64,000 nucleotides of DNA from Rouxiella chamberiensis. Lineage in GTDB: Bacteria > Pseudomonadota > Gammaproteobacteria > Enterobacterales > Enterobacteriaceae. Every line of letters starts with the position of its first letter. Position 1 is the first letter of the stretch. The notes under the pieces were generated by a model. That model was not told the DNA's origin and did no database searches. It saw nothing but the letters and a program-made list of their open reading frames with translations. The position numbers and the translations under genes are program-made. Shown here one piece after another: positions 9,783 through 26,372 of the stretch. The stretch is from positions 1,178,001 to 1,242,000 of the forward strand of contig NZ_CP114058.1 in assembly GCF_026967475.1 (NCBI RefSeq). Reading direction: 5' to 3'.

Positions 9783-10125
9783 AAGAACAGCGTGGCAAGA
9801 CGAAACTCTTTATTGGGAATCGTGTAGGTATGAGTTTTCTGTGGGAATGTCTTGCACCCTATTAAGCGTAGCCAAAGATTTCCGGCCTGCGTCCCTAACA
9901 ACCGTGTGGACTCTTGTTTTTTGACATAATCGGCAATTCGCTGCTTTTGCAGGCAGGATTTCAGACGTTATCGGTCTGATTTATCCGATAAATCCTTTTT
10001 TCGCCGTTTTTGTGAGCGAACGTCCCGTCGAGAGTGCAATCCCGACTTATCAATTGTTTGCCCAGCGGCTAACATAGGCAGATATTAAGGATGAAATGCC
10101 GCCCTCTGCTTGTGAGTCACGCCCG
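9783..10125. other. Divergent intergenic region between paoA and topB
   Basis: About 340 bases with no credible gene; it must hold the promoters of paoABC (leftward) and topB (rightward). TTGACA occurs in the middle (near 9920), but I see no convincing -10 at the right distance, so no promoter is called. Confidence 0.5.
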
Positions 10126-10467
10126 ATGCGCTTGTTTATTGCCGAAAAACCCAGCCTTGCCCGAGCGATTGCTGATGTCCTGCCGAAACCGCATAAACGT
10201 GGCGACGGGTATATTGCCTGCGGCAATCAGGATGTCGTGACCTGGTGTGTTGGACACTTGCTGGAGCAGGCGCAGCCTGACGCCTACAACAGCCGCTTTG
10301 CGCGCTGGTCGCTGGAAGACTTGCCGATTATTCCCGAAAAATGGCAGTTGCAGCCGCGTCCTTCCGTTGCCAAACAGTTGAATGTCATCAAAAGATTGCT
10401 GCTCGAGGCGCAGGAAGTGGTGCATGCCGGTGACCCCGACCGCGTACTGGTACGATGTTCTTATTGA
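10126..10467 (+). pseudogene. topB: 5' fragment of host topB, split by the mobile element
   Basis: Codons 1-106 of DNA topoisomerase III from ATG 10126 ([20 protein letters not shown]), including Toprim residues Glu7, Asp103 and Asp105 (AGDPDR). After Arg106 (CGC, 10441-10443) the sequence turns into element DNA, encoding VLVRCSY and a stop at 10465. The missing remainder resumes at 24766 with [13 protein letters not shown]. The truncated product of 113 residues lacks the catalytic tyrosine and cannot be active. The topB promoter upstream is intact and could read into the element, whose recombinase genes lie in the same direction. Confidence 0.95.
10445..10453 (+). repeat. Left terminal inverted repeat of the element
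   Basis: TACTGGTAC starts one base after host codon 106. Its partner at the right end, read on the minus strand, is TACTGTTAC: eight of nine positions match. Confidence 0.55.
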
Positions 10468-10524
10468 ATTAGATTGTTACGTCGATAATCTATGAACTTA
10501 TGAAATCATCCGGCAGGTACTCGT

Positions 10525-11853
10525 ATGAGCATCATTCTTTGGGAAGTTCCTGACTTTGTTGTTGACCAGAAGATTAATAGGGAAATTGATACTGATACTG
10601 GGGAGTTATCGGTAAATTTTGTAGGTGAAGGTCAGCATTTAGGAAAGCTGCCGCTATTATTTATGGAAGACGGTAGCAGTATCAGAGTCGCCAATAATTG
10701 GCTAATTCATTTGAAAGCTAATTTACGTAAAAAAGAGGTTAATACACAGGCTCAGGCATTGTTGCATTATTTTACCTTTCTCCATGATATTGGTATGTCA
10801 TGGGATGAAATGCCAATATCGCTCAGACTACGTCCTACCTATGCATTCCGTAAGCATTTACGAGAAATGTTCAAACAGGATGAATTGGCGCGCAGTACTG
10901 CTAATAGTTATATGGGATCGGTGATTAATTTTTATAAATTTTATCTGGCTCGCGATCACTTTTTTGCCTATCCTCCCTTTAAATATGAAGTGGTTCGGTT
11001 ACATAGAAATTCACCCCATGAATATATGAGAAATCATTTTATTCATGTTGATACCACGGATTTAAGATTAAAATTACCTAATGATACCCGACACTTTGGA
11101 CTATCACGAAAACTGGTTCCGATTAGCAGTAACGAATGGCAAATCGTTGAGTCTGTATATAAAATCCGTGGTTTAGGTGTTTCAACCAGTACAGGTGAGG
11201 GTAATGAGGTTCCACTATCAGAGGAATGTAAGTTAGCTATTGATCTTAGCCGATACTCTGGGCTTAGAAGATCGGAAATAATATCGTTAAGAGTAAAGCA
11301 AATTTATAAACCAGATACTGAACAGCTTAAGAAAAAATATCTGATCAATACTGAAGGCTTGCTGCTTGATCCTCGACAAGGCGTTAAAACTAAAAATGGT
11401 ACAATACGCACGGCTGAGATCCACTCTGAATTAATGCAGACTCTGTATGATTATATTAATTCATCCAGATATATTAAGCGTAGAAATAGATATCAAGAGC
11501 GTTATCCTGAACATAAAGATAACCCACCATTGTTGCTCAATCAAAATGGTAAACCCTATGCCGCTAAAACACTGGATGCCAGATGGTGTGAAATCAGAAA
11601 TGCGGTTAGAAAAGAGTTACCCAACTTTAGTCATAAATTTCATAATTTACGTTCAACCTATGCAGTAGAAAGGCTAAAAGAATTATTGAATGCTGGGTTG
11701 AAGGAGGGTAAAGCGCTTGATTATCTGCAATCAATGATGGGACATAAAAGTAGAGCGACCTTACTGGGTTACCTAAAATTCTGTGAGGAAGAAACAATGA
11801 AAGCTAATGAAGTGCATGAGAAAGCATTGAATATTATTCTCAAGAGTGATTAA
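10525..11853 (+). CDS. Tyrosine recombinase 1 of the element (TnpA-like)
   Basis: Site-specific integrase of 442 residues with the phage-integrase catalytic set. The first Arg lies in DLSRYSGLRRSEIISLRV, the HxxR box in HKFHNLRSTYAV, and the second His plus nucleophile Tyr in MMGHKSRATLLGYLKF. An N-terminal core-binding SAM-like domain (about residues 60-140) precedes the catalytic half. ATG 10525 follows a GGCAGG stretch. It is the first gene inside the left end and is followed five bases later by recombinase 2. Role inferred: DNA cleavage and strand exchange at element ends and target. No frameshift. Confidence 0.9.
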   Translation: MSIILWEVPDFVVDQKINREIDTDTGELSVNFVGEGQHLGKLPLLFMEDGSSIRVANNWLIHLKANLRKKEVNTQAQALLHYFTFLHDIGMSWDEMPISLRLRPTYAFRKHLREMFKQDELARSTANSYMGSVINFYKFYLARDHFFAYPPFKYEVVRLHRNSPHEYMRNHFIHVDTTDLRLKLPNDTRHFGLSRKLVPISSNEWQIVESVYKIRGLGVSTSTGEGNEVPLSEECKLAIDLSRYSGLRRSEIISLRVKQIYKPDTEQLKKKYLINTEGLLLDPRQGVKTKNGTIRTAEIHSELMQTLYDYINSSRYIKRRNRYQERYPEHKDNPPLLLNQNGKPYAAKTLDARWCEIRNAVRKELPNFSHKFHNLRSTYAVERLKELLNAGLKEGKALDYLQSMMGHKSRATLLGYLKFCEEETMKANEVHEKALNIILKSD

Positions 11854-11858
11854 TAATT

Positions 11859-13643
11859 ATGGCATTTTTAAAAGAGAATAAACGCAAAACAGTAACATCA
11901 TCGTTTATTGATACGGATACAATAATTAATATTAATTTACGGGATCAATCCATCACTGATGGCCATGGTACTGCGAACTTCGAACGTTTGTTATATAAAC
12001 ACTGTCCTGTTTTAGCTATGAAGGAGCGGCGTGTTACTATATCTGTTAATCAACCAGATCTTATTGATGCAAACAGAAGAGAACTCGTAGTACGTATTTG
12101 TAATACAATTCACTCTTTAGATGTTACAGATAGAACGAAGATCAATATTTTTAATGAGACTGTACGCTTTATCCGAATGGTTGACGAGCAAGATATTAAT
12201 CAGATTTTTTGCATTGATTCTGTCAGCTTATATATAAAGAGCCTTACAGAAGCTTACCGGAGTGGGCACAAAGGGAAAACATTATCTGGCAGACAAAATT
12301 CACTTAAAGCGTTGCTGATGGGGTTAGACCCTGATCTTTTTAAACAATGTAAAAATATCTTCATTACATTCCCTGCTGACACTCAGAACATTTTACCCTA
12401 TACAGATGATGAACTAAAAGAGTTGGTTTCAGCCCTGTATATAATCTATGATGATTATTGTTTGCATATTGAAAGTGGTACTGAACCTGATATCTTTCCT
12501 CTTTATAGCGTAAAAGATCTAAAGGGTATTTATCGATATAGACATAACTTATCAACAGAAAGAACGGTATCATATAATAACAGTGATACAGTATGGATAA
12601 GTGACCTAGTGCGAGCGGCCTATTTTATTAGTTGTTTTTATACTGGCGCAAACGCCACATCTTTGTTAAAAATGAAATTGTCAGATCTTACTGATGAACC
12701 ATTTAAAGACCTTGCAAGGAAAGTATTTAAACTGAGTGTTAAAAAAGGAAGGCAGTCTGGCCGAATCAATGAAATTGATGTGGGCTTTACCAGAGAAGCA
12801 CGTATATTTTTTGAAAAGTGGATCGTGATAAGTAAAATAATAAATCACGATAAAAATGGATTTTTATTTCCAAATCCTACTAACGATAAAAATTCCTATA
12901 TGACAGGTAACAGCACTGGCATTTTAAATAAAATTTTTGTAGACCTTGGTTTACCTGCCTTAAGAAGCCAGCGCTTTAGAAAAACTAAAGCTTCATTAAT
13001 TATGAGAGCTACAGAGAGTGTGTTCTTTGTTTCTCAGGGGCTCAATAATTCCGTTGAAACGGTCGCAAAACATTATGCAGATGGTAACCCTGTTACCACT
13101 GAGTTCTCACTGGCTTCCGCGCTGTATATTCGAGAGCAGACTGCCTTGGGAAAACCTCTAGATAAGGCTATTACTGAGAGTGCATTCCTTTACCACGACC
13201 CACTAAAAGAAGGTGAAGCCAGTAAAGAATTTAAAAAACTGACTAATGGCTTAAGATGCGGTGGAGCATTTAAAGATAAGGCTATAAAAGTTAAAGAGGC
13301 TTTGGTTAAAAATGGCTTGGCTGAATCCCATGATGTCGTAGCTTGCCATAAGTTTCTTGAATGTTTTGGGTGCAAGCATCACGCTATTATCGCAGAGGTC
13401 GATGATATTTGGCTTTTACTCTCATTTAACGATGTGATTCTGGATTCTGTCACAAGACCAGCAATTAACTCCCGCCCATCAAACTTACTGAACAAAGTGA
13501 ATAATACTATTCAGATCATCATTGAACGAATGAAAACGGAGCATAATGCGGTATACAATGAAGCCTATGATAAATATTTGAATGGAATGCACCCCATTTG
13601 GCAGGATGTGAATGATCTAGAATTGATGCTGGGTATTTACTGA
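11859..13643 (+). CDS. Tyrosine recombinase 2 of the element (TnpB-like)
   Basis: Protein of 594 residues related to the middle, longer recombinase of recombinase-trio elements. The region AYFISCFYTGANATSLLKMKL aligns with the first catalytic Arg box of integrases, but Arg is not at its usual place (TGANATS instead of TGxRxSE). RSQRFRKTKASLIM and VETVAKHYAD occupy the HxxR and Tyr regions. The C-terminal part has a Cys/His-rich patch (ACHKFLECFGCKHH) that could bind zinc. It may be a degenerate or regulatory partner. Its stop overlaps the next start (TGATG at 13641-13645), so the trio is translationally coupled. Confidence 0.8.
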   Translation: MAFLKENKRKTVTSSFIDTDTIININLRDQSITDGHGTANFERLLYKHCPVLAMKERRVTISVNQPDLIDANRRELVVRICNTIHSLDVTDRTKINIFNETVRFIRMVDEQDINQIFCIDSVSLYIKSLTEAYRSGHKGKTLSGRQNSLKALLMGLDPDLFKQCKNIFITFPADTQNILPYTDDELKELVSALYIIYDDYCLHIESGTEPDIFPLYSVKDLKGIYRYRHNLSTERTVSYNNSDTVWISDLVRAAYFISCFYTGANATSLLKMKLSDLTDEPFKDLARKVFKLSVKKGRQSGRINEIDVGFTREARIFFEKWIVISKIINHDKNGFLFPNPTNDKNSYMTGNSTGILNKIFVDLGLPALRSQRFRKTKASLIMRATESVFFVSQGLNNSVETVAKHYADGNPVTTEFSLASALYIREQTALGKPLDKAITESAFLYHDPLKEGEASKEFKKLTNGLRCGGAFKDKAIKVKEALVKNGLAESHDVVACHKFLECFGCKHHAIIAEVDDIWLLLSFNDVILDSVTRPAINSRPSNLLNKVNNTIQIIIERMKTEHNAVYNEAYDKYLNGMHPIWQDVNDLELMLGIY

Positions 13644-15504
13644 TGAAAAAAGCGCTGGAATTTATTGATGGCAATAATACTTATGATGCTCTGATTGTTT
13701 CTTTTGATACTGAAGGTCGTCCATATAGTCACTATGCTTCTGATGATTGGTATTTATGGTCATTAGGTTTTAACATTTCTTTCTCTAGATTATCTGGTTC
13801 GTTCAAATCAACAGTAAAATATTTAGTTTATAAGGTCATATCAAATAATAGCTTAAAGTCAAAAAAAGTGCGGTTAAAAGCATTATTGAAGGCGCTGTCA
13901 TTTTTGAAAAATGTATAACAATATGCAATGGTACATCATATAGCGTTATTGATAATGATGATTTTTTCAGACGGTTACTAGTTGAGGCTAAAAATAAGAG
14001 GTTGAAGTTCAAAACATGGAAAAACAACCTTATATTCTTATCTCATTTGTACAACGCAGATATAATAAAAAGAGAGATAAAAAATCATGAAGAGTTAGCT
14101 ATGTATTTATCAGTAAGTGGTACATTAGTCTCGCAAGCCGTGTGTATTCCAGAATCTATTGCGTCCAGATATTATAGTGAGGCATTGAAAGTTATTGAAA
14201 CTTATCACCCTTACAGAAATGAAATATCTTCATGCTATAATGATTTCGTGTCCGGATATTTTGAATCATCAAAACATTATGATTCTAATCGTTCAGCAAG
14301 AAGATATGCACTTAAGAATATTAAAAATCTACCAAAAAATATTAATATTCAATTTGACTATGGTGGTTCATGGTTATCCTGGCTCAGAGGAGCCTGTTAC
14401 ACCGTGATTGCGGCATTTACAGGTTGCCGGGATGGTGAGATAAAGTCTTTTAGGATTGATTCCTATCAAGAGAAAAAATACGCAGGTATGATCGTGCCTG
14501 TCTTACATGGTCTAGATACTAAGCCTAATTTGGGTGGTGTGGTACGACATACTTCATGGGTGACGATACCGAGTGTCAAAAAAGCAATCGAACTGCTTTG
14601 GGATGCATTTAGCTTTGCGCGTGAAAAGTGGAGAGAAAGAGCGGAATCAATAGCACATCCTGATGAAAAAAATGTTTTTCTTGAAAAGGTCGATAGCTTA
14701 TTTGTTACGCTCCCCTATATGCGGGGACATCGACCTGATGCTGGAAAACAATCATTGGCTCATTCTCTTAACACCTTCGTTAAATCCGTGGGATATCGTG
14801 CCACAAAGGATGACGTTCAAGAGTTCGACTTATTAAATCCATCCAGAAAAGGTGAGCTTAAAATAGGACAGATACTGAAAGTCCATCCTCATGCATTTCG
14901 TCGAACTTTTGCTGTTTATTTGGTGCGTAATAAGTTGGCCTCTCTGCTGGATATTAAGTATCAGTTTAAGCATATGAATATGACCATGACATCCTGGTAT
15001 GCCAATCAGGCTAATATCGCTTCTTATGTTGATATGATGATTGATAAAGATCTCCAGGATGAAATTGCAGGTGAGAATCTAAACCATATGACAGATGTTT
15101 TTTATCATTTTTATAATGAAGCTGAAACTTTAGCAGGGCATGAAGGAAAAAGAATAAAAAACCTTCGGTCTGAGGGCGACACGCGTATTTACTTAAGCCG
15201 AGAAGAGATTCGCAAACAAGTTCAAGATGGGCAGCTTTCTCTTGTTGAACATCCAGGCGGCTATTGTACGAATCCAAATTGTGATCGTATTTGCGATATG
15301 ACGACCTGTCAGTACAAAATTGTGACTAAAGAGCAAGCTAAATCACTGATTCTGATTAGAGAACAGTTAATAACAAAATATAATCTGATTGCCACTGCCG
15401 GATTTGATATGCCGAATGTCACTTCAAAGTTCTTCTATGGAATTAAGGCTATTGAGCAGGTCTTATCCGAGCATCATTTTGATTATGTTTCTTTTAAGAA
15501 ATAG
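13643..15504 (+). CDS. Tyrosine recombinase 3 of the element, frameshifted near 13878
   Basis: One gene of about 620 residues that appears as two frames. The first 75 or so codons (MKKALEFIDGNNTYDALIV) continue in the +2 frame as SIIEGAVIFEKCITICNG if the A run at 13876-13879 had one more A. Catalytic features: FTGCRDGEIKSFRID (first Arg), HPHAFRRTFAVYL (HxxR) and QFKHMNMTMTSWYAN (second His and Tyr). A Cys-rich segment, GGYCTNPNCDRICDMTTCQYK, near the C-terminus may form a zinc site. The break is most likely a homopolymer read error. Confidence 0.85.
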
Positions 15505-15515
15505 GACACTTATTT

Positions 15516-15991
15516 ATGATTGATGAAGAAACGCTCACTGAGCGAGGTAAACTAACGATAATCAGGCTTGAACGGGCTCTTGAGCGTTTATTAAACGGCG
15601 TTCCGGAACGGACTCCCCACGATGGGCGAGTCAGTCTGAGTCGTATCAATCAGGAAGCAGGTCTCGGTTCGGGGGCATCTACTATTACGATGAGTTTGTC
15701 CAGAAAGCTAAAAGAGCTATTCACGAAAGAAAGCTCGACAACGCAGTGTCTACTATCGAGTCAGGTAAAGCCTCGGTGGATAAAATGCGCGTACAAAGGG
15801 ACAAAGAACGGGAGTTAAAAGAGCGTTACAGGTCTCAACGAGACGATATCAAAGCCTTCTGCGATAAGATTATTGCTAAAAATGCTCAGTTAGAATTCTC
15901 TTTGTTCGAAGCATTAGATAAGATCGAGGATCTGGAAAGGGAAGTATCGGCACTCAAGGTTGTTGATATAAGTAGCAGGAGAAGTCAGTGA
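15516..15991 (+). CDS. Small coiled-coil accessory protein of the recombinase trio (TnpC-like)
   Basis: About 158 residues after correcting one frameshift in the G run at 15671-15675 (five G; six would give GLGSGGIYYYDEFVQKAK). The N-terminal half looks like a small helical DNA-binding domain (DGRVSLSRINQEAGLGSG). The C-terminal half is a charged coiled coil (RVQRDKERELKERYRSQR, LEFSLFEALDKIEDLEREV). Size, position after the recombinases and coiled coil recall TnpC of Tn554, which affects frequency and orientation of transposition; function here is inferred. Its stop overlaps the GTG start of the element topB. Confidence 0.7.
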
Positions 15992-17910
15992 TTTTGTACA
16001 TAGCTGAAAAACCGAGTGTTGGCAGGGCAGTTGCTGATGTTCTGCCGAAACCACATCAAAAAGGGGACGGGTTTATTAGAACCGCAAACGGTGATGTGGT
16101 GACTTGGTGTATTGGCCATTTACTCGAACAGGCTGAGCCTGATGCCTATAACCCTGACTTTAAAAAGTGGCGCAGGGAGCATTTACCCATCGTGCCAATA
16201 GAGTGGAAACACTCGGTAAAACCTGCCACGCAGAAGCAATTTAACGTTATAAAAAAATTGATTAACGAAGCCGATGTGCTGGTCAATATGGGCGACCCCG
16301 ATAGGGTCGGGCAAATTCTGGTTGATGAGATCATCAATTATTGCGGTGTCCCAAAAGAGAAGCGTGAAGCAGCCAAGCGCTGTTTAATTAACGATATGAA
16401 CGCCGATGCTATCCAACGGGCGCTAAATGACCTGCGTAGAAATATCGACTTCATACCTCTGGCTACCTCAGCATTAGCGCGTGCACGCGCTGACTGGCTC
16501 TATGGTATCAATATGACCCGTTTATGTACCTTACGGGGACAGTCATCGGGTTATAACGGTGTGCTATCTGTAGGACGGGTACAGACGCCGGTATTAGGTT
16601 TGGTCGTTAATCGTGATTTAGAAATCGAGAATTTTGTCTCTAAACCCTTCTATGACGTGGTTATCGATCTTAAAACCGATAAAGACCAAATTTATACGGC
16701 AAAATGGAAACCAAGTGCCGCCTGTGAACCCTATATGGATGAAGAGGGGCGACTGGTGCTGAAAAAGCTGGCTGAAACCGTATTGAAGAAGGTAACAGGC
16801 CAGCCAGGAACTGTGGTTGCGGTAACTGAAGAACCGGGCGAAACAAGCCCCGCCATTACCCTATAACTTGTCCGCACTGCAAATCGATGCTTCCAGACGT
16901 TTTAATCTCAATGCCCAGAAGACGCTCGATGTGTGCCAGCAGCTCTATGAGAAACATAAGTTGATTACTTATCCTCGTTCAGATTGTCGCTATCTACCCA
17001 GCGGACACTTTGGCGATACACATAGAGTCACCCAAGCGGTCGCTAAAACTGTTCCTGGACTGGCGACAGCTGTTGAAATTGCCGATCTGGCAGTCAAATC
17101 TAAGGCGTGGAATGATGATAAGGTCAGTGCGCACCATGCCATTATTCCGACCAGTCGTGGGGTTGATACGAATCGTCTATCGCTTGATGAGCAGAACATC
17201 TATGAATTGGTCGCCAGACAGTATCTGATGCAGTTTTATCCACCTTTTCAATATCAGGAAAAGCAGATCGATACCGAAGTGGGTGGCGGCTTGTTTATCA
17301 GCAGGCAAAAAGAAGTTGTTGATAAAGGCTGGAAAGCATTATTACCCGAGCGGAAATCATCTTCTGAAGATCCAGAGTTCTCAGCCGTAAGGTTGCCAGA
17401 GGTTATCAAAGGGGAGGGGGTAGTTTGTGTTGATGGCAAGCTAGATGAAAAGCAAACCTCGCCGCCACGTCACTTTACCGATGCCTCTTTGCTATCAGCG
17501 ATGACTGGAATTGCCAGATACGTCACCGATAGAGCGATCAAAAAGGTACTTAGAGAGACCGATGGCTTGGGAACAGAAGCGACCCGAGCAGGTATCATTG
17601 AATTACTGTTTAAGCGTGACTATTTGACCAAAAAAGGCAAAGAAATTCATGCTACGGATATTGGCCGCAGGTTGATACTATCTCTGCCAGAAGCTATGAC
17701 AAAGCCTGATATGACGGCACATTGGGAGTCACAGCTAGAAGCGATTTCTGAGAAAAAATTAAGTATGGTCAGTTTATGCAACCTATGGTTGATGGTTTAC
17801 ATGTGTTTATTCATCAGGTCGATAATATCCGTTTTAACGGGCTTAGAGGCTTAGGTAAGGCTCCACGAAAAATTGCGATGCAGAAAAAACAGGTAAAACG
17901 GCAACAATAA
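15988..17910 (+). CDS. topB: Element-borne DNA topoisomerase III with E107V, two homopolymer frameshifts
   Basis: Second full-length TopB (about 640 residues; E. coli 653), starting at GTG 15988 (MILYIAEKPSVGRAVADVLP). Toprim residues Glu7, Asp103 and Asp105 are present, but the motif reads GDPDRVGQ, with Val107 in place of the normally invariant Glu. The active-site Tyr is intact in [15 protein letters not shown], and [18 protein letters not shown] follows. Two frameshifts lie at 16848-16851 (one C too many) and 17753-17758 (one A too few); correcting both gives a continuous frame ending QKKQVKRQQ. Since core host genes show the same error type, the gene may be intact. It probably replaces the split host topB. 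Its G+C looks higher than that of the surrounding cargo. Confidence 0.9.
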
Positions 17911-17997
17911 CGAGTTGTGCATCTTTAAATATGGCTATCACATTAATTAGTGCCGGAGATAATCGTCCTTGCGCATGGTAAAGTATTGTTTGGAATG

Positions 17998-18025
17998 GGA
18001 TGCCAGTTAGTTGGCATCCTTCTTT
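17998..18025 (+). terminator. Terminator after the element topB
   Basis: Eight-base-pair stem GGATGCCA-GTTAGT-TGGCATCC followed by TTCTTTC. It lies about 90 bases after the topB stop and just before the convergent gene at 18028. Confidence 0.75.
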
Positions 18026-18027
18026 CC

Positions 18028-18501
18028 CTACATGGATAACAGCTGGTTAATTGCTCTAATTGTACCATTTAACTGGTTAAATTTTTCAGCAGTATCTTTC
18101 TGTAGTTTCGTGATTTTAAGCTTTTCTTGTGGGATTTTTTCTAATAACTCCCTGTAAGCTTGCAGTTCGTAGCGAATCAGCAATAGATCTTTTTCTAATG
18201 CTTTCTTTTCTGAAGAAAGCATGCAGTTACCGTCATTAGCTTGATGAAATAATGATGGATTTGTGACTTCTGACGAAAATTTGTAGATTATATTTTTGAT
18301 ACTACCACTCGAGATGACAAGTCCTTGCATCTTCAACTGATGAACACCACGATCAACCAATCCAGTAGCCTGTATTCTAGACAATTTTATCTCTTTAATT
18401 GCTATATTAATCAAATGGTTACGTGAAATTTTATTATGGTTTATCTGGGCTAAAACCCGACCAAATTTTTTACTGATCTTAAATGAAATCCTACAGGTCA
18501 T
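18028..18501 (-). CDS. Unrecognised protein with basic N-terminus and C-terminal coiled coil
   Basis: Protein of about 157 residues from ATG 18501 (MTCRISFKISKKFGRVLAQ); an upstream GTG at 18522 would add seven. I do not recognise a family. Residues about 20-65 (NHLINIAIKEIKLSRIQATG through GVHQLKMQGLV) look like a small helical, winged-helix-like domain, and about 95-157 form a charged coiled coil (EKKALEKDLLLIRYELQAY onward). It is divergent from the XRE regulator, with two operator-like palindromes between them, so it is probably co-regulated or a partner regulator. No frameshift. Confidence 0.6.
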   Translation of the reverse strand: MTCRISFKISKKFGRVLAQINHNKISRNHLINIAIKEIKLSRIQATGLVDRGVHQLKMQGLVISSGSIKNIIYKFSSEVTNPSLFHQANDGNCMLSSEKKALEKDLLLIRYELQAYRELLEKIPQEKLKITKLQKDTAEKFNQLNGTIRAINQLLSM

Positions 18502-18527
18502 ATCTACAAAAGCTCTTAACACTAATA

Positions 18528-18542
18528 CTTAGGATTGCTAAG
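18528..18542. promoter_or_regulatory. Operator-like palindrome 1 (CTTAG-N5-CTAAG)
   Basis: CTTAGGATTGCTAAG. It shares both half-sites with a second copy centred 34 bases away; together they fill the gap between divergent regulator genes. Likely binding sites for the adjacent XRE-type regulator (inference). Confidence 0.6.
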
Positions 18543-18561
18543 TATACAGGAGTGCGAGAAA

Positions 18562-18576
18562 CTTAGACAATCTAAG
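18562..18576. promoter_or_regulatory. Operator-like palindrome 2 (CTTAG-N5-CTAAG)
   Basis: CTTAGACAATCTAAG; read on the other strand it is CTTAGATTGTCTAAG, close to site 1. The spacing of 34 bases, about three helical turns, puts both sites on the same DNA face. It lies 19 bases before the regulator start. Confidence 0.6.
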
Positions 18577-18594
18577 CTACTGAGACGCTATGTG

Positions 18595-18912
18595 ATGAAA
18601 AAGATTTGCAAAAAAACCCAATACCAGAGCGCCTTAGGCAGGCCAGAAAAAAGCCGGCATATCCCAAAAGGATTTGGGGGTGAAGGCTGGAATGGATGAA
18701 GGATCAGCCAGTGGTCGTATGAATCATTACGAGAAAGGTCGGCATGCTCCTGATATTGAAACATTACGTAAGATAGGAACAATACTGAATGTTCCTCTGA
18801 GTTACTTTTTTGTGAAGATGAGCTAAGTGCTGAGATGGTGACTCTTTTTCAAGATTTGAATGAAAATGAAAAAAATAACATTATCCAAATACTTCGTGGA
18901 GATAAGAAATGA
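18595..18912 (+). CDS. XRE-family helix-turn-helix regulator, frameshifted
   Basis: About 106 residues after correction, reading NPIPERLRQARKKAG, ISQKDLGVKAGMDEGSASG, RMNHYEKGRHAPDIETL, then NVPLSYFFCEDELSAEMV. This is the compact HTH_3/XRE family with recognition helix around the Asp-Glu-Gly-Ser-Ala-Ser segment and a short acidic tail. Runs at 18610-18616 (A7), 18647-18652 (A6) and 18806-18811 (T6) each seem one base short; a TTG start at 18605 would avoid the first correction. It probably binds the two palindromes just upstream and controls itself, the divergent gene and perhaps the cassette downstream. Confidence 0.75.
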
Positions 18913-19051
18913 ATTGTTATTTTTCTCGCTCAATGACAATATATTAGCATTGAAATGTAATGTGTTTAAACATGGAACTTATCAGCTTTGACTGAACATC
19001 GATAAGGTTATTTACCTATTATCTGGATAAACCTGTGAAAGAAGAACTTTT

Positions 19052-20882
19052 ATGAATGATATATATATTAGTCGTGTGCAAATTGAAGGTGGTTTTCTTG
19101 ATGGTTTAGATGTATCTCTAAAACATGGTTTAAATACGATTATTGGTGCACGAGGAACCGGGAAGTCTACATTCATCGAACTGATTCGGTACTGCCTAGA
19201 TGTTAAAGGTCATACCATTGAATCAAATAATAAAGCTATATCTCATGCCAAATCTGTTCTTAATGATGGGCAAATAACCGTTACCATATGTAATGGTAGT
19301 GACTCTTTTTCTTATACGAGAACTGGTGATAGTGAGCCTACTCCTCCAATAGATCGCAATCTGAAAACTCCACTGATATTTTCCCAAACAGAAATTGAAA
19401 ATGTTGGGCTAACATCCTCTGGGCGAATGAAACTCATTGACGATTTTTTGTCTGGTCTCGATACGTTACACCAGCAAGAATTTGCAGAAATAGCTATTGT
19501 AGAATCTTATGCATCAGAGATTCTATCATTATCATCGAGTGTTGATGATGTCGAAGACAAATTGTTAATGCTACCACAGCTTAGACAACAAATGATTTTA
19601 ATCGAGTTAGAAGAAAAAAATAGCTGGAATATCTGAAGTCGCAAAATTAAAATCTGATGACTTAAAGAAACTAAGTGATGTTTACTTTAAATTAAATGAA
19701 AATGTTGAAAAAAATAATAAAAAGATAGAAAAAATCAGTTCATTAAAGCGTAACTTAAACTCATTCATGGCTGAAAAACAAGAAGTAGAATCGTGGGTGT
19801 CAAGTGAAGTTTCTAGTGATGCTAGAATAGTAAATGAATTAAAAATAGCAGGAGGTCATATATCTTCGATAATCTCTGCTTTTGATAGTTTCATGCATGA
19901 TATATCAATTGAATTAAATGAACTGCAAGTTAAGATACAAGATATAACAAAACAAGGACAAGGCTTGCGTTCTGACATCGATAAAATACAGGAAGGAGCA
20001 GGAGAGGTAGCTAGGAAGCGTCAAACACTTCAGCAATCTATCTTAAATCTTGAAAATATTAAAAAACTCAACTTTGATAAAAGTATTAAAGTATTGGATT
20101 TAAAAAACAAAAGAGACCTTTCTCTAACAAGGCTTTGTGATCTCCGAAAACAGAGGTCTGACTTACGTGTTGCCAAATGCAATGATTTGAATAAAGCATT
20201 GAAACCTAAAATAAAAGTAACTATCGAAGTCGCTAATAGATTAGATGACTATCAACAGGTATTGATAAATGCATTGAAAGGGGGGTATTAGATACAATGA
20301 CATTGCACCGATTATTAGCGAATCAATTCCTCCTGTTATTTTAATTAAAATTCTTGAGTCTAACGATATTGATGGTTTTATTTCACTTGTTTCAATATCT
20401 AAAGACCGAGCATTGAAGATAATCAACAGTCTCAAACAAGCTACTGATAAGATAGCCACTGTCCTGCTTGAAGATGAAATAAAACTAGAGTTATTAGACG
20501 GTTCTGAATATAAAGATTTTACTGCGCTTTCTACTGGTCAGCGATGTACAGTGATACTACCGATAATTTTAGAGCATAAGGAAAGCATCTTAGTAGTAGA
20601 TCAGCCTGAAGATCATATTGATAATGCATTTATTGTAGAAACATTAATTTCTTCCATCACTAGGCGAGCTAATGATGGGCAAATCATTGTTTCTTCGCAC
20701 AATGCAAATGTACCAGTTTTAGGTGGTGCCGAAACTGTTATTCATTTAAATTCTGATGGGACTCGGGGATATGTTATTGCAGAGGGGGACTTGATGATAT
20801 TAATATCGTGAGTTCAATATCTAATGTCATGGAAGGTGGCAGAGAGGCATTTAACCGTAGGGCTGACTTCTATGGTAGATGA
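19052..20882 (+). CDS. SMC/RecF-like AAA ATPase, first gene of the cargo cassette, frameshifted
   Basis: About 610 residues after correcting three homopolymer breaks (19614-19620, 20280-20285, 20784-20788). Order: N-terminal ATPase lobe with Walker A GARGTGKST at residues 32-40; a long coiled coil (about 150-440); C-terminal lobe with a signature-like FTALSTGQRCTVILP, Walker B SILVVDQPEDHID and an H-loop region IIVSSHNANVPVLG. The end (VMEGGREAFNRRADFYGR) is typical of this ATPase group. The DQPEDHID motif recalls TrlF-like and other defence-associated ATPases, but there is no PHP or nuclease domain. Its end overlaps the start of the next gene by 11 bases, so the two are coupled. Confidence 0.82.
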
Positions 20883-21750
20883 TTTAAAAAAGCTTTAGAT
20901 AATTTGATATCTTCAGATGCCAACGAACGATTTTATGCAGCGAGATATTTTATAGAAAATAATACTCCAAGTGCTCGCTCTAAGTTAGAGGAACCAGAGG
21001 AGCAAGGAGTTAGTGAGACATGTTCGTATGGCTTTGGATAAAGCTCTACACCACATGTCTCCAGATTCACAGAATTTTCCTGAAACAGATGATTTGACTG
21101 ATAAAGCAAGAGTTAGATTCTTAAAGCGTGAAGCAATAAATGAATTCTCAGGGACAATACTCCATGAACTTTCACCTAAAATTGGTTTGTTAAAAGAACA
21201 TTTAGCTAATGAAATCCATGAATACGATAGTAGTAGTTCAAGGAAAGTCGTTGATAGCCTGCTTCGTATATTTGGTGCGATTGAAAGTCTTAGGCGCACT
21301 GCTAAGAAGCCAGAAAGCCATGAGTTTGACTTGGCACAGTTAATTAGAGATATAATCGCTGAAGAGCATAGTGAAAATATTTCATATTTATATGAGGGGA
21401 TTCAGCCCTGCATAATTAAATCAGATCGTCGCATTTTGGGCTTAGCACTTGCGAATGGCATACGTAATGCCATTGAATCAATTAACGCACACGCTTTTAG
21501 TGAAAGAGATTTAACGATTTGTTGGGGAGCAAGTGATGTTGATAATTGGGTAAGCATTATCGATACTGGCACCGGATTGCTAGGTTCTCCAGAGGCTGCT
21601 TTTAAAATCGGTAATACCAATAAGGCCAATCATACAGGATTTGGTATGGCTATAATTCAGCAGGCAGTTGAGAACTTAGGTGGTTCTGTATCTCTTGCTA
21701 ATATCGTTTCTGGTGGAGCTAAGTTAGATTTACGGTGGGGTAACTTTTAA
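20872..21750 (+). CDS. Soluble histidine kinase with HEAT-like N-terminus, frameshifted
   Basis: About 291 residues from ATG 20872 (MVDDLKKALDNLISSDANER) after correcting an A run (20886-20891, one short) and an extra G at 20990-20991. The N-terminal 60 residues look like one HEAT-type helical repeat (NERFYAARYFIENN). A dimerisation/phosphoacceptor helix has the H-box GTILHELSPKIG near residue 97. The GHKL ATPase domain has the N-box LANGIRNAIES, G1 box DTGTG and G2 box HTGFGMAI. No transmembrane segment or periplasmic sensor: it must sense something in the cytoplasm. It overlaps the receiver gene by one base (TAATG), making a cognate pair likely. Confidence 0.8.
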
Positions 21751-23191
21751 TGTCAAATAGAAATTTTAAATTGTTAATTGTAGAAGATGAACCTGATATA
21801 TCGGATAATATTTCTAGCGTGTTTAAGCGCATATTCAATGATATAGATATTACTTTTGCTACTTGTCGTGATGAGGCATTTGAAATTCTAGAGAGTGAGA
21901 ATGTTTTTTTTGACTATATTACATTGGATTTGAATTTTTCAGTAATAAAAAATGGATTTGATAAAGATCCCCAAAATGGCCTAGCAGTGCTTGCGAAATG
22001 CGTGAGCGATATCAAAGGAACACCAATCCTCATCCTGACTGGAACTAGTACAGTTGATATGATTGGGCAATTCTTATCCTCATCGGTTATTACTGACATT
22101 TGGGGTAGCGGAGTTGCAGGTCCTACAATTGAGCATTGTAGAAAGGAAAATATAAACGAGCTTTCTAAAATTGTTGAAAGTTTAAAAATAAAATTTGACA
22201 ATATATATAATGTAGAACTGAATTTTGAATCTGATAACATTACTCTTCCGATTGAACATGATCGATTATTAAGGATATTTAGTAAAAAACATGGCAGCGT
22301 CATTACAAAAATAAAAGCTATAGGGGGAGGGCTATCAGCATCAAAAGTCTATGGATTAGAACTGTCAAATGAGTATGGTCATGTTTTTTGAGAGTGGTGT
22401 CTAAGTGCGGTCCAAATGAAAAAGTTAATGAGGATGAAACTAATTATCGTACTTTTATATCAAGGTTGTCACCTGGAGCAACTCCACGATACATAGATCT
22501 TATAGTTCATGGGGCAGCTTCTTATGGTGCTGTATTCTATGGGTTTGCTCACACTTATGATCATTCATTTTTCAGTGCCTCTGAAGCCGGCGTAATGAAT
22601 AGTGATTTATACTTAAATACGAGAAATATACTTGATATTTGGTATGATGCTCGAGTTATGAGAAATTGTTCTATAAAAAGTATACGTCAGCAAATATTAT
22701 CAGATGAAAATGCCTTTGATTTAATGAAAAAATATAATCTTAATACAGCGTTTCATTTTGAAAATCATACTGTAAATTGTTCACATTCCGTTCAGCATGG
22801 TGATTTACATGGTGAAAATATACTGATTAACACCAAAGATCAATCATCATCTCTTATTGATTATGGTGATATTGGAGAAATGGTCAGTATTTTAGATCCT
22901 CTTACATTAGAATGTAGCTTCTTATTTCATCCAGATGCAGCCAAGTATGACTGGCCCACTGATGAGAATTTAGATAATTGGCATTCAATAGAGCAGTATC
23001 TAGATGGTTGTCCTATTGCTTCTGAAATCCGATTTTGTAGAGATTGGCTTAATTCAAGGAAACGCGGTAACAGAGAGGTTAGTGCTTGCTTATATTCCTA
23101 CGCCTTACGTCAATTAAAATATCCTGGGACTGATAAAAATAGAGCTTTAAGACTGATTGATGCGGCATATAGGCTTTACGTAGCATCCTAG
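21750..23191 (+). CDS. Response-regulator receiver fused to an APH-like kinase, frameshifted
   Basis: About 480 residues after adding one T in the run 22384-22389. Residues 1-125 are a receiver domain: acidic pair Glu12-Asp13 (LLIVEDEPD), phosphoacceptor Asp60 (ITLDLNF), Thr97 (ILTGT). The usual lysine near the fifth strand is not evident. From about residue 175 an aminoglycoside-phosphotransferase/choline-kinase-like domain follows: glycine-rich loop GGGLSASKVYGLEL, VVSKCG lysine strand, catalytic loop SVQHGDLHGENILIN (HxDxxxxN) and metal-binding SLIDYGD. The split falls inside the kinase N-lobe, which argues for one fused protein. A phosphorelay controlling a small-molecule or protein kinase is inferred; the kinase substrate is unknown. 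Confidence 0.78.
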
Positions 23192-23219
23192 TTAATTTAT
23201 TAATTTTGATTTTTATCGC

Positions 23220-23252
23220 AGTGAGCTTTATTTCACAAAGCTCACTTGTTTT
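23220..23252 (+). terminator. Terminator after the cargo cassette
   Basis: Perfect ten-base-pair stem AGTGAGCTTT / AAAGCTCACT with a seven-base loop, followed by TGTTTTA. It begins 28 bases after the stop of the receiver-kinase gene and separates the cassette from the next gene. Confidence 0.85.
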
Positions 23253-23437
23253 AGCATGTTTCTTCTATACGAAAATGAAAATTAAGTGAATAATGTTTTT
23301 ACAGGTTTAATGAATATTAATAGACGTGAATTTCTAAATAATTCTTTATGCTAATATTAAAAATTCTTTACAGCTGGATTATTTGATTGATAAAATAGAT
23401 GCGTTGAGTGTACAGGATGGTTAAAAAGGATATAGTA

Positions 23438-24445
23438 ATGGATGAGTTGTGGAATGAACTTAGTGTGAAATTAAATGGATATATTACCACTTTAAAGAAA
23501 ACTAACCCTAATGGTAAATACAATAATAATTTTCCAAGAAAAAATAAAATTAGCTCTACTAATGAAGCGCAAATAAATATTATTTTTGAGCAAAGTGAAA
23601 AGATTTTGAATTTGAGGGGAAACGATAATGTACTAGGTTTAAATCTCCATCAAGATGATAAAGTTGATTTGTTGAAACATTTCCTGGCTGACCTTGAGCA
23701 ATTTTCCACAGAAAATGGGCTTTACTTAGGAGGAAATCAGATATTCACGTATGGTCAATCTAGGATAGCTGAGCACGCTTTGTTTCATTTGGCTGCATCT
23801 CCAGTTTTTCCCAATACATATAGAACTATAGAACAACATGCAGGTAAAGTCTTCGATGTCTATTCTATTCCATTTAAAATTAGAGTGTCACTTGAAAATA
23901 AAATAAAAAGCATTATCGGCTTTGAAAGTATTGATGTGGTGAAATTAAATGGTGATAATGTGAAATCATATGATTTTCCTTTTACATACATATTAAATGA
24001 GCTGATTTATTTGAAATGCTTAGATTTACCATGTTCTTTGGAGAATATAAAAAATATTTATCAGTGGAGTTGTAACTTCTGTCATACAGGGGAGAAGGAG
24101 CCTATATGGCTTTCACTTAAAGCGCTTGAAATTATTTCACCTCTTTTTATTTTCAAATATCAAAAAGAGTATGAAATTAGTGTCATGGAGCTATGGCATA
24201 GATATGTCTTTTCTGAGGAGTATATGTTGGGAAAGTTATCCAGATATAAAGGTTTTGTTAATCCAATTTATCATCTAAAAAAAGGTTGGTCAATTAATAA
24301 GTTGCAGAGCTGTTTAAATAAACCAATCGATGTTAAAAGAAAATATAAAAGAAAGGATGCAAAGGAAGTCCTATTTAATCTGTCTGAAACACAACTTAGC
24401 GAGGTGAGCTATTATTTTTGTGATAGGACAAGGGAGTATTACTAA
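23438..24445 (+). CDS. Unrecognised cargo gene near the right end of the element
   Basis: Protein of 335 residues from ATG 23438 (MDELWNELSVKLNGYITTL), chosen for AAGGAT eight bases upstream; earlier in-frame starts are GTG 23408 and ATG 23417. I recognise no family. It is soluble and mixed helical, with conserved-looking aromatic segments (YGQSRIAEHALFHLAASPVF, YQWSCNFCHTGEKEPIWLS, MELWHRYVFSEEY) and a basic Lys/Arg stretch near the C-terminus (VKRKYKRKD). A single CxxC (CNFC) is present. It stands alone after the cassette terminator, before the element's right end, in a typical cargo position. The frame is intact over 1 kb of AT-rich DNA, so the gene is real. Confidence 0.65.
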   Translation: MDELWNELSVKLNGYITTLKKTNPNGKYNNNFPRKNKISSTNEAQINIIFEQSEKILNLRGNDNVLGLNLHQDDKVDLLKHFLADLEQFSTENGLYLGGNQIFTYGQSRIAEHALFHLAASPVFPNTYRTIEQHAGKVFDVYSIPFKIRVSLENKIKSIIGFESIDVVKLNGDNVKSYDFPFTYILNELIYLKCLDLPCSLENIKNIYQWSCNFCHTGEKEPIWLSLKALEIISPLFIFKYQKEYEISVMELWHRYVFSEEYMLGKLSRYKGFVNPIYHLKKGWSINKLQSCLNKPIDVKRKYKRKDAKEVLFNLSETQLSEVSYYFCDRTREYY

Positions 24446-24478
24446 ATAAGGTAACTAAAATCTTAATGTCCATAAAGT

Positions 24479-24492
24479 AACTTAGCTAAGTT
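24479..24492. repeat. Perfect 14-base palindrome near the right end
   Basis: AACTTAGCTAAGTT. The half-site CTTAG/CTAAG is the same as in the two operator-like sites at 18528 and 18562, but without the five-base spacer. Confidence 0.55.
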
Positions 24493-24751
24493 ATTATTCT
24501 AGAGAGGTTAATTTCAGACTTTTATCTAGTGTTTTTGGTTGCTAAAGGATAATGGAATGTTAAATAATTATGATTTATCGCTCATAACAGGCTCATTAGT
24601 TGATTTTGAAAGGCTCATGTCAAACGAATTTTACATTGTTCTATATGCAATAGTCAGCTCTTGGCACTTTTTTTTATGAAAATCCCAAAACTCTGAAGTC
24701 CAATTTTTTTCATGGAAATCATAAAAATAAATTTTTTCACAAAAAATACTT

Positions 24752-24760
24752 GTAACAGTA
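24752..24760 (-). repeat. Right terminal inverted repeat of the element
   Basis: GTAACAGTA on the plus strand (TACTGTTAC on the minus strand), partner of the left repeat. Five bases, ATGAT, lie between it and host codon 107; they could be a coupling sequence carried from an earlier insertion site. Confidence 0.55.
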
Positions 24761-24765
24761 ATGAT

Positions 24766-26372
24766 GAGGGGCAATTGCTGGTCGACGAAGTGCTGGATTA
24801 TCTGGATCTTGACGCCACCAAGCGCCAGCAGGTGCAACGCTGTCTGGTCAATGATCTCAATCCGCAGGCGGTCGAGCGGGCGGTGTCCCGTCTGCGCGAC
24901 AATCGCGATTTCATTCCATTGTGTGTTTCTGCGCTGGCTCGTTCCGCGCCGACTGGCTCTACGGCATCAACATGACGCGCGCCTACACGATTCTTGGACG
25001 CAACGCCGGTTACAACGGCGTGCTTTCCGTGGGGCGCGTGCAGACGCCGGTACTCGGGCTGGTGGTCCGCCGCGACGAAGAGATTGAAAACTTTGTGGCC
25101 AGAGACTTCTTCGAGGTCAAGGCGCACATCGTGACCCCCGCCGACGAGCGCTTTGTCGCCGTCTGGCAACCCAGTGAGTCCTGCGAACCTTATCAGGATG
25201 AAGAGGGGCGTCTGCTGCATCGTCCACTGGCCGATCACGTGGTGGCGCGCATCGGCGGGCAGCCTGCTGTTGTCAGCGGCTACAACGACAAACGCGAGTC
25301 TGAAACCGCGCCGCTGCCGTTCTCGCTCTCCACGCTGCAAATCGAGGGAGCCAAAGCCTTTGGTTTAAGCGCGCAGAAAATCCTCGACATCTGCCAGCGT
25401 CTGTATGAAACCCACAAGCTGATTACCTATCCACGTTCCGACAGCCGCTATCTGCCGGAGGAGCATTTCGCCGGCCGTCATTCCGTGCTTAACGCCATCG
25501 GCATCCATCAACCCTCTCTGATGCCGCAGCCAGCGCTGGATACCGATAAACGCAATCGTTGCTGGGATGACAAAAAAGTCGATGCGCACCACGCGATTAT
25601 TCCGACCGCGCGCAGCAGCCGTGTCAACCTGACCGACGATGAAAGCAAGATTTACGGCCTGATTGCCCGACAATACCTGATGCAGTTTTGCGCCGACGCA
25701 GTGTTCCGTAAATGCGTGATTGATCTGGATATCGCCGGCGGTAAATTTGTCGCCAAGGCGCGTTTTCTGGCCGATGCCGGTTGGCGCACGCTGCTCGGCA
25801 GCAAAGAGCGCGACGAAGAAAACGAAGGAACGCCGTTACCCGTTGTGGCCAAGGGCGATGAACTGCTCTGCGAGCGCGGCGAAGTGGTCGAACGCCAGAC
25901 CCAGCCGCCACGCCCGTTTACCGACGCCACGCTGCTTTCGGCGATGACCGGCATTGCCCGCTTCGTGCAGGACAAGGCGCTGAAAAAGATTTTGCGTGCC
26001 ACGGATGGCCTAGGCACGGAGGCCACGCGCGCCGGAATTATCGAGCTGCTGTTCCGCCGTGAATTCCTCTACAAGAAAGGACGCTATATTCATTCCAGCG
26101 ACACCGGAAGGGCGTTGATTCACTCGCTGCCCGACATCGCCGCGCGCCCCGATATGACCGCCGACTGGGAATCGACCCTGACGCGCATCAGCGAAAAGAA
26201 CTGCCGTTATCAAGATTTTATGCAGCCATTGGTCTCGACGCTGCAAGACCTGATTGTGCAGGCCAGACAAAATCGTGTGTCTCCGGCCTTTCGCACTATC
26301 CCGTCCAAGCCCAAAGCTGCCGCGCCAAAACGTAAACGCGCGCCCGCCAAGGCCGGCAAAAGCGAGAAATAA
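24766..26372 (+). pseudogene. topB: 3' fragment of host topB, with one frameshift
   Basis: Continues the split topB from codon 107: [13 protein letters not shown] onward to the stop at 26370. It holds Glu107, the rest of Toprim, the catalytic Tyr ([20 protein letters not shown]), [12 protein letters not shown] and a basic tail ([18 protein letters not shown]). It has no own start at the junction and lacks the first 106 codons, so it is not functional while the element is present. A single-base gap at 24944-24945 (CC, expected CCC before GCGCCGAC) breaks the frame and is likely a read error. Precise excision of the element would rebuild an intact gene. Confidence 0.94.

Follow-up and report, generated by a model that had tools for sequence, protein, structure and literature searches.

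To our knowledge, Detocs is the only named two-component phosphorelay in phage defence, and such phosphorelays are rare among the known anti-phage systems. Detocs is a three-gene defence system that combines a histidine kinase and a response regulator with a phosphate buffer, DtcB, and no ATPase gene figures in the part of its description available to us (PMC11728103). A second point of comparison is the TrlF family (NF045780; trlF of the Photorhabdus TRL operon), and the available part of the report on trlF records no mutations observed in this gene and leaves its role open (PMC7554251). A third is provided by the vWA-MoxR-VMAP conflict systems, with which the TCAD9 domain is associated in a figure legend (PMC10910872); among such effectors, the accessible part of Kaur et al. 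2020 (PMC7159879) includes active APH-like kinases together with a receiver domain, with histidine kinases unmentioned in that part. Here, we describe a three-gene operon in a 64,000-nucleotide stretch of the Rouxiella chamberiensis genome (hereafter the window) that encodes an ATPase, a histidine kinase and a response regulator fused to a kinase. With moderate confidence, we regard it as a three-component signalling system on mobile DNA that most likely acts against phages, in which an infection-triggered ATPase would signal through the histidine kinase and the receiver to a kinase that halts the cell.

The three-gene operon is real. At positions 19052-23191 of the window, the ATPase, histidine kinase and receiver-kinase genes follow one another, each overlapping its neighbour, in the order given by the original prediction, which had been made from the letters of the window alone; the motifs that it had named for the three proteins are also present there. 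The features of the operon are as follows.

19052 to 20882, forward strand: SMC/Rad50-like ATPase, a stand-alone TrlF-type ATPase module, with three frame interruptions in the assembly
20836 to 21750, forward strand: soluble histidine kinase with an H-box and HATPase_c and possibly a HEAT-like N-terminus, with two frame interruptions near its start
21750 to 22214, forward strand: receiver domain of the response regulator, with the phospho-acceptor Asp60
22242 to 23191, forward strand: APH-like/TCAD9 kinase domain, the output of the response regulator, with one frame break at about 22385

The receiver-kinase gene in full spans 21750-23191, and the histidine kinase gene, which ends at 21750, has start candidates at about 20836 (GTG) and at 20872 (ATG). 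By our own reading of the frames, the window copy contains three breaks in the ATPase gene, two in the histidine kinase gene and one in the receiver-kinase gene, and a run of 5-7 equal bases lies at five of these six sites. The topB copy of the element and an XRE-like gene are likewise frame-broken. Since further genes in the window are also broken, the breaks are most simply, and probably, explained by errors in sequencing or assembly. Since the window frames are interrupted, intact relatives were used for the analysis, and the window pieces were searched separately. All three genes are intact in Erwinia sp. JUb26 (locus L001). Compared with this locus, the two best pieces of the window ATPase were 87% (residues 2-188) and 94% (residues 411-581) identical, the histidine kinase was 73% identical in a single alignment spanning its frame breaks, and the receiver-kinase was 75% and 79% identical in two pieces. 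As judged from these alignments, the identities across the three genes are far beyond chance. In addition, an intact histidine kinase of 304 residues from another assembly (P0001) was 100% identical over a window query of 245 residues.

The sequence of the ATPase indicates that it is a stand-alone TrlF-type ATPase part. The first window piece matched Pfam AAA_23 above its cut-off, the last piece matched AAA_21 weakly, and close relatives are approximately 605-615 residues long. The L001 ATPase aligned to positions 289-944 of NF045780 with an E value of 2.5e-72, and the full-length scores of the ATPases from L001 (245.0 bits) and L006 (260.6 bits) were below the cut-off of 350. The ATPases of 610-612 residues begin at position 289-290 of this profile, with the N-terminal 288 profile positions missing, and no PHP-type motif was found in the L001 ATPase. 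More distant relatives in contigs of a viral collection reach 863-982 residues; a DxHxH-type (PHP-type) motif occurred in all five of these longer proteins, while Pfam PHP was above its cut-off in one and weak in another. The residues G31, G36, K37, S494, G496, Q497, D517, E520 and H550 were kept in all 68 of the ATPases compared, and the Walker A, signature, Walker B and H-switch residues were thereby invariant (68/68). An AlphaFold2 model (pLDDT 87.0, pTM 0.68) showed a head and a coiled coil which, together with Walker A and B and an LSxGQ-type signature, place the protein among the SMC/Rad50-like ATPases. A Foldseek search with this model returned Wadjet JetABC chains first (1.1e-11), followed by SMC, MukB and Rad50 heads, and chains of Lamassu LmuB (LmuACB) stood lower down among the first 50 matches.

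The second protein had been predicted to be a soluble histidine kinase with an H-box and ATP-binding boxes, and this was borne out. The window protein exceeded the gathering score of HATPase_c, and H110, E111, N207, N211, D243 and the G boxes were kept in 23/23 histidine kinases. None of the 23 contained a membrane-like segment, the highest Kyte-Doolittle mean over 19 residues being 1.41. Profile positions 9-75 resembled designed alphaRep repeats (whole-sequence E value of 1.6e-6, with no significant single stretch), and HEAT_2 was detected in one of the 23 proteins (E value of 0.097). At position +4 from the phospho-histidine, 21 of the 23 kinases carry a proline, one a glycine and one a serine; in the 13-locus set described below, this residue is a proline or a serine, except for a threonine in Rhodococcus. 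A threonine or an asparagine at +4 of the H-box supports phosphatase activity in HisKA kinases, and the usual absence of both would therefore favour a one-way switch.

The third protein completes a two-component pair, since H-box and ATP-binding boxes in the kinase are matched by the phospho-acceptor aspartate and the lysine of the receiver, both kept in 84/84 receiver-kinases. The kinase catalytic residues D352, N357 and D371 were also kept in 84/84, and the exceptions to invariance were K219R in one protein and T97S in two. The APH-like kinase output claimed for this protein was upheld: the gathering score of TCAD9 (40) was passed by the proteins from L001 (52.3 bits) and L006 (46.7 bits), and predicted structures support both the APH (APH/choline-kinase) fold and the receiver fold. 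PDC-M60B and PDC-M60C of PADLOC matched the receiver half only. Such a fold raises the alternative that the protein is an inducible kinase that detoxifies a small molecule, in the manner of the aminoglycoside and macrolide phosphotransferases. The precomputed Pfam annotation, which lists APH (PF01636) for many relatives, and a weak resemblance of a window piece to MphL (19.6 bits against a cut-off of 612) both point this way. However, in L001 and L006, TCAD9 was the only model above its cut-off over the kinase half, Pfam APH stayed below its own, and NCBIfam gave no match for this half at an E value of 1e-4. As an input of an ATPase and a histidine kinase also offers no obvious link to drug sensing, we consider a detoxifying kinase very improbable.

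A lack of co-occurrence elsewhere had been named as a reason to abandon the original prediction; instead, the three genes were found together in 16 of 17 distinct receiver-kinase loci. These comprised the window, L001-L015 and G259 (L031/L060). Seven loci were discovered through the histidine kinase and nine through the receiver-kinase, and each search tests the other two genes. The histidine kinase adjoins the receiver-kinase in 17/17, and the order ATPase, histidine kinase, receiver-kinase is found in 16/17, with the exception of a Piscirickettsia locus (L012). Fourteen of the 17, namely L060 and a set of 13 loci, have uninterrupted frames for all three genes. In a mirror-tree test of this set, from which L003 (broken), L012 (without the ATPase), L060 and the window were dropped, the protein distance matrices of the three genes were correlated with r values of 0.953-0.960 (Mantel p 0.0001), and by this measure the three proteins are inherited together.

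The hosts include Erwinia, Klebsiella, Leclercia, Idiomarina, Vibrio, Caballeronia, Paraburkholderia, Rhizobium, Shinella, Methylosinus, Wenxinia, Piscirickettsia and Rhodococcus, and the operon is carried on plasmids, on viral-collection contigs and on chromosomes. The receiver-kinase matched 47 plasmid records, 36 of them from Piscirickettsia, and eight were fetched, including one from Piscirickettsia. The receiver-kinases of Leclercia and Idiomarina are 28.9% and 45.9% identical to that of Erwinia, respectively, and on these identities the relationships of the system cross host taxonomy. The system is rare: counting the seed genomes, it was present in 2 of 394 genomes of the order of Erwinia, 1 of 369 of the class of Idiomarina and 1 of 385 of the class of Methylosinus. 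DNA-level searches (megablast, blastn) of complete E. coli genomes found nothing, while a protein search does list relatives labelled E. coli, and tblastn with the receiver-kinase gave no match in annotated phage genomes. Two viral-collection contigs carry the operon, which in L006 lies near phage replication-type genes and in L007 follows tail-type genes, as judged from the translations. Carriage on plasmids and islands, the tight overlap of the genes and toxin-antitoxin neighbours at some loci would also suit an addiction module, in which the histidine kinase and the unphosphorylated receiver would keep a toxin kinase in check and cells that lose the operon would die. We judge this improbable, because an ATPase sensor and three large proteins that retain their catalytic residues exceed the needs of such a module and because one Piscirickettsia locus is without the ATPase.

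The same type of ATPase was also found with a different output. When 398 genomes from the same phylum were searched with a profile of the ATPase, 13 matched at E 1e-40. Eleven of these were fetched with one ATPase locus each (L049-L059), further copies in G1151 and G1218 being left out; the remaining two were the Erwinia seed and a genome with an open frame of 887 residues. In 11/11 of the fetched loci, the ATPase is followed by a histidine kinase and then by a response regulator of approximately 305 residues. Where complete, these ATPases are about 27-30% identical to those of the main system over their length. All are at least 62% identical to that of L053, and because the 11 loci form such a tight group, they represent one lineage and not eleven independent events. 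The receiver of this second lineage is related to that of the main system (hhalign E value of 1.1e-11), and the similarity between the two groups of histidine kinases is carried by the catalytic part, HEAT_2 being detected in one second-lineage kinase (E value of 0.002). The C terminus of the second-lineage response regulator had no Pfam match and, by that test, is not a TCAD9/APH kinase; an OmpR-type winged helix, considered by eye, was not shown by Pfam or by a profile search of PDB sequences. Judged from these alignments, this type of ATPase is paired on more than one occasion with a histidine kinase plus response regulator, and the output can change, which suggests a modular sensor-to-phosphorelay class. 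We tentatively propose, as a possibility that we rate a little short of an even one, a class of modular immune phosphorelays in which a TrlF-type DNA-sensing ATPase acts in trans through a soluble histidine kinase on swappable response-regulator outputs. Separately, G1151 had three ATPase matches, and WYL-like, HsdM-like and AbiEii-like genes were seen by eye near some of the loci L049-L059.

The operon lies on a mobile island, as the original prediction had held in describing it as the cargo of a mobile element. The island is AT-rich (36.8% GC, against 58.0% and 56.3% in the flanks) and is inserted in the topB gene of the host. The following features surround the operon.

10468 to 24740 (ends approximate), no strand assigned: mobile island carrying the operon, recognised from GC content, recombinase-like genes and copies of topB
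10525 to 15504: recombinase-like genes of the island, weak matches
15988 to 17854: the island's own topB, frame-broken
about 18596 to 18912, forward strand: broken XRE-like regulator gene, an upstream neighbour and not a conserved part, with pieces in three frames read by eye
23220 to 23246, forward strand: possible intrinsic terminator with a perfect 10-bp stem and a weak T tail

Two boundaries claimed for the operon stood only in part. Pieces of the XRE regulator gene do lie upstream, but the gene is broken, and the gene tables of the plasmid loci L008-L011, L013 and L014, which are incomplete, list no XRE-like gene immediately before the ATPase gene; because it is absent from the annotation of these six loci, it was not counted as part of the system. 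The terminator described as perfect does have a perfect stem, but its T tail is weak, and sites of this kind occur at the chance rate in the scan (3 observed vs 2.8 expected). Downstream, a gene of 345 residues (23408-24445) had no NCBIfam or PADLOC match and a sub-threshold Pfam match. At 10525-15818, genes of 442 and 500 amino acids with weak tyrosine-recombinase matches lie together with small genes, and a gene of 594 amino acids between these two had no NCBIfam match; the layout of this row recalls atypical multi-integrase elements. An island of the gamma-mobile-trio type was considered, and the recombinases matched no NCBIfam model so named. Within 10096-26372, the host topB is split by the island after about 107 codons; its pieces are 48-62% identical to the topB of the island, which is possibly a replacement copy for the split gene. 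Elsewhere in the window, the exonuclease III shows at most 80% identity to proteins of the plasmid collection among the best 5 of 358 records, with Klebsiella and Proteus at the top.

Defence genes near the operon had been suggested as a check on the defence role, and among hand-picked neighbours four loci had such genes with support from PADLOC: L004 with CBASS genes (E1-E2, cyclase and phospholipase), L009 with HamA and HamB of Hachiman, L010 with AbiEii and L005 with a Drt8-like fragment. Of these genes, the closest are located about 1.4-3.7 kb away from the operon. On a Caballeronia plasmid (L009, 10468-17395), the operon adjoins Hachiman, followed by genes for Ku and LigD, and a DNA-end-related island is possible there. 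The neighbourhoods also bear on a further explanation, namely that the operon serves stress or maintenance signalling of the mobile element and not immunity, with the ATPase reporting DNA damage, replication or conjugation and the kinase tuning metabolism or transfer. Several plasmid copies do lie near relaxase, replication or toxin-antitoxin genes, and the non-kinase C terminus of the second lineage could, by eye, bind DNA, making a regulatory output possible. However, the CBASS and Hachiman neighbours and the viral-collection contigs suit immunity better, and the first fold matches of the ATPase are defence or DNA-handling proteins. We therefore regard signalling for the element as unlikely, while giving it more weight than the addiction module.

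Returning to an anti-phage system, sequences and models establish its parts, their kept residues, the gene order and the co-inheritance; we infer the trigger, contacts, phosphotransfer, substrate and defence role. A dimer of the ATPase would bind a cue of infection, probably DNA of the phage or DNA ends, and its ATP-dependent change would reach the histidine kinase through the N-terminus of the latter, which is probably HEAT-like. After autophosphorylation on its H-box histidine, the kinase would transfer the phosphate to the receiver at Asp60. In this phosphorylated state, the receiver would free the APH-like kinase, which would phosphorylate a cellular target (a small molecule, a peptide or a protein) and thereby stop phage growth or the cell. 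If the class of modular immune phosphorelays proposed above is real, bacteria would have placed a two-component relay between an SMC-type sensor and its effector, decoupling sensing from killing. Communication between an SMC/TrlF-type sensor ATPase and a histidine kinase would tie the surveillance of DNA to the classical signalling pathways of bacteria. An APH-like kinase switched on by a receiver would represent a new type of effector, and swapped outputs would show a re-wiring of immune sensors.

Several observations weigh against this interpretation. First, the neighbours compared with PADLOC were ten proteins from seven loci chosen by eye, which makes the defence genes an association and not an enrichment, and at 12 of the 16 relative loci there was no supported anti-phage gene among the neighbours looked at. 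Second, at least 880 relatives of the ATPase were found (E 1e-10), against 193 receiver-kinases; because the former far outnumber the latter, this type of ATPase has other partners too. In addition, the whole-chain Foldseek superpositions of the ATPase are loose (TM by query of at most 0.37), and the N-terminus of the histidine kinase is possibly HEAT-like on weak similarities. Third, correlated distances are expected from the co-inheritance of any operon. Fourth, individual copies depart from the pattern: the Piscirickettsia plasmid (L012, 7293-9269) carries a short histidine kinase and a receiver-kinase without the ATPase, the Wenxinia locus (L003, 8202-11523) looks degraded, since codon 91 of its ATPase is a stop and its receiver-kinase is divided between two contigs, and the window copy itself, should its frame breaks be genuine, may not function.

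The original prediction would have been contradicted had the set matched a named system, and no such match was found. The TrlF family has the ATPase part in common with the present system, which, however, lacks the N-terminal PHP-type part of TrlF and whose output would come in trans from the histidine kinase and the receiver-kinase. Among anti-phage ATPases, Ppl shows local similarity to the ATPase (88 and 101 bits, the cut-off being 1000), and matches to LmuB of Lamassu cover part of the profile, in line with the LmuB chains among the fold matches; beside the ATPase, no PHP domain or LmuA-like gene was recognised, LmuA not having been searched for. TrlF and Ppl thus share the type of ATPase with the present system, but not its layout. 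The usual output of Detocs is a nucleosidase. Detocs (DtcA, DtcB, DtcC) resembles the present system in having three genes that include a histidine kinase and a response regulator, but differs in its DtcB buffer and, as far as the accessible part of its description goes, in lacking an ATPase gene, in contrast to the ATPase and APH-like kinase output found here. In the six plasmid loci, the annotation shows no further receiver gene next to the operon, a judgement made without a search for DtcB, and no PADLOC model matched the histidine kinases of L001 and L006 at an E value of 0.01, it being uncertain whether PADLOC includes DtcA. The vWA-MoxR-VMAP ternary systems share the TCAD9/APH-like domain, which in the present system is fused to a receiver and placed behind a histidine kinase; the annotation of L008-L014, read from incomplete tables and without a family search, names no gene for vWA, MoxR or VMAP. 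LxmK of the lexapeptide dehydratase complex LxmKY is 11% identical to the kinase and has no receiver, and the shared fold is uninformative on the substrate. The claim of a new layout holds in that no model of PADLOC (2023) or NCBIfam (2026) covers the three-gene set and no description of it was found in the open-licence PMC literature; the sensor type, however, is not new, being a relative of the TrlF-family ATPase. Compared with these systems, the set is best described as a variant of a defence-like phosphorelay that has a fair chance of forming a class of its own.

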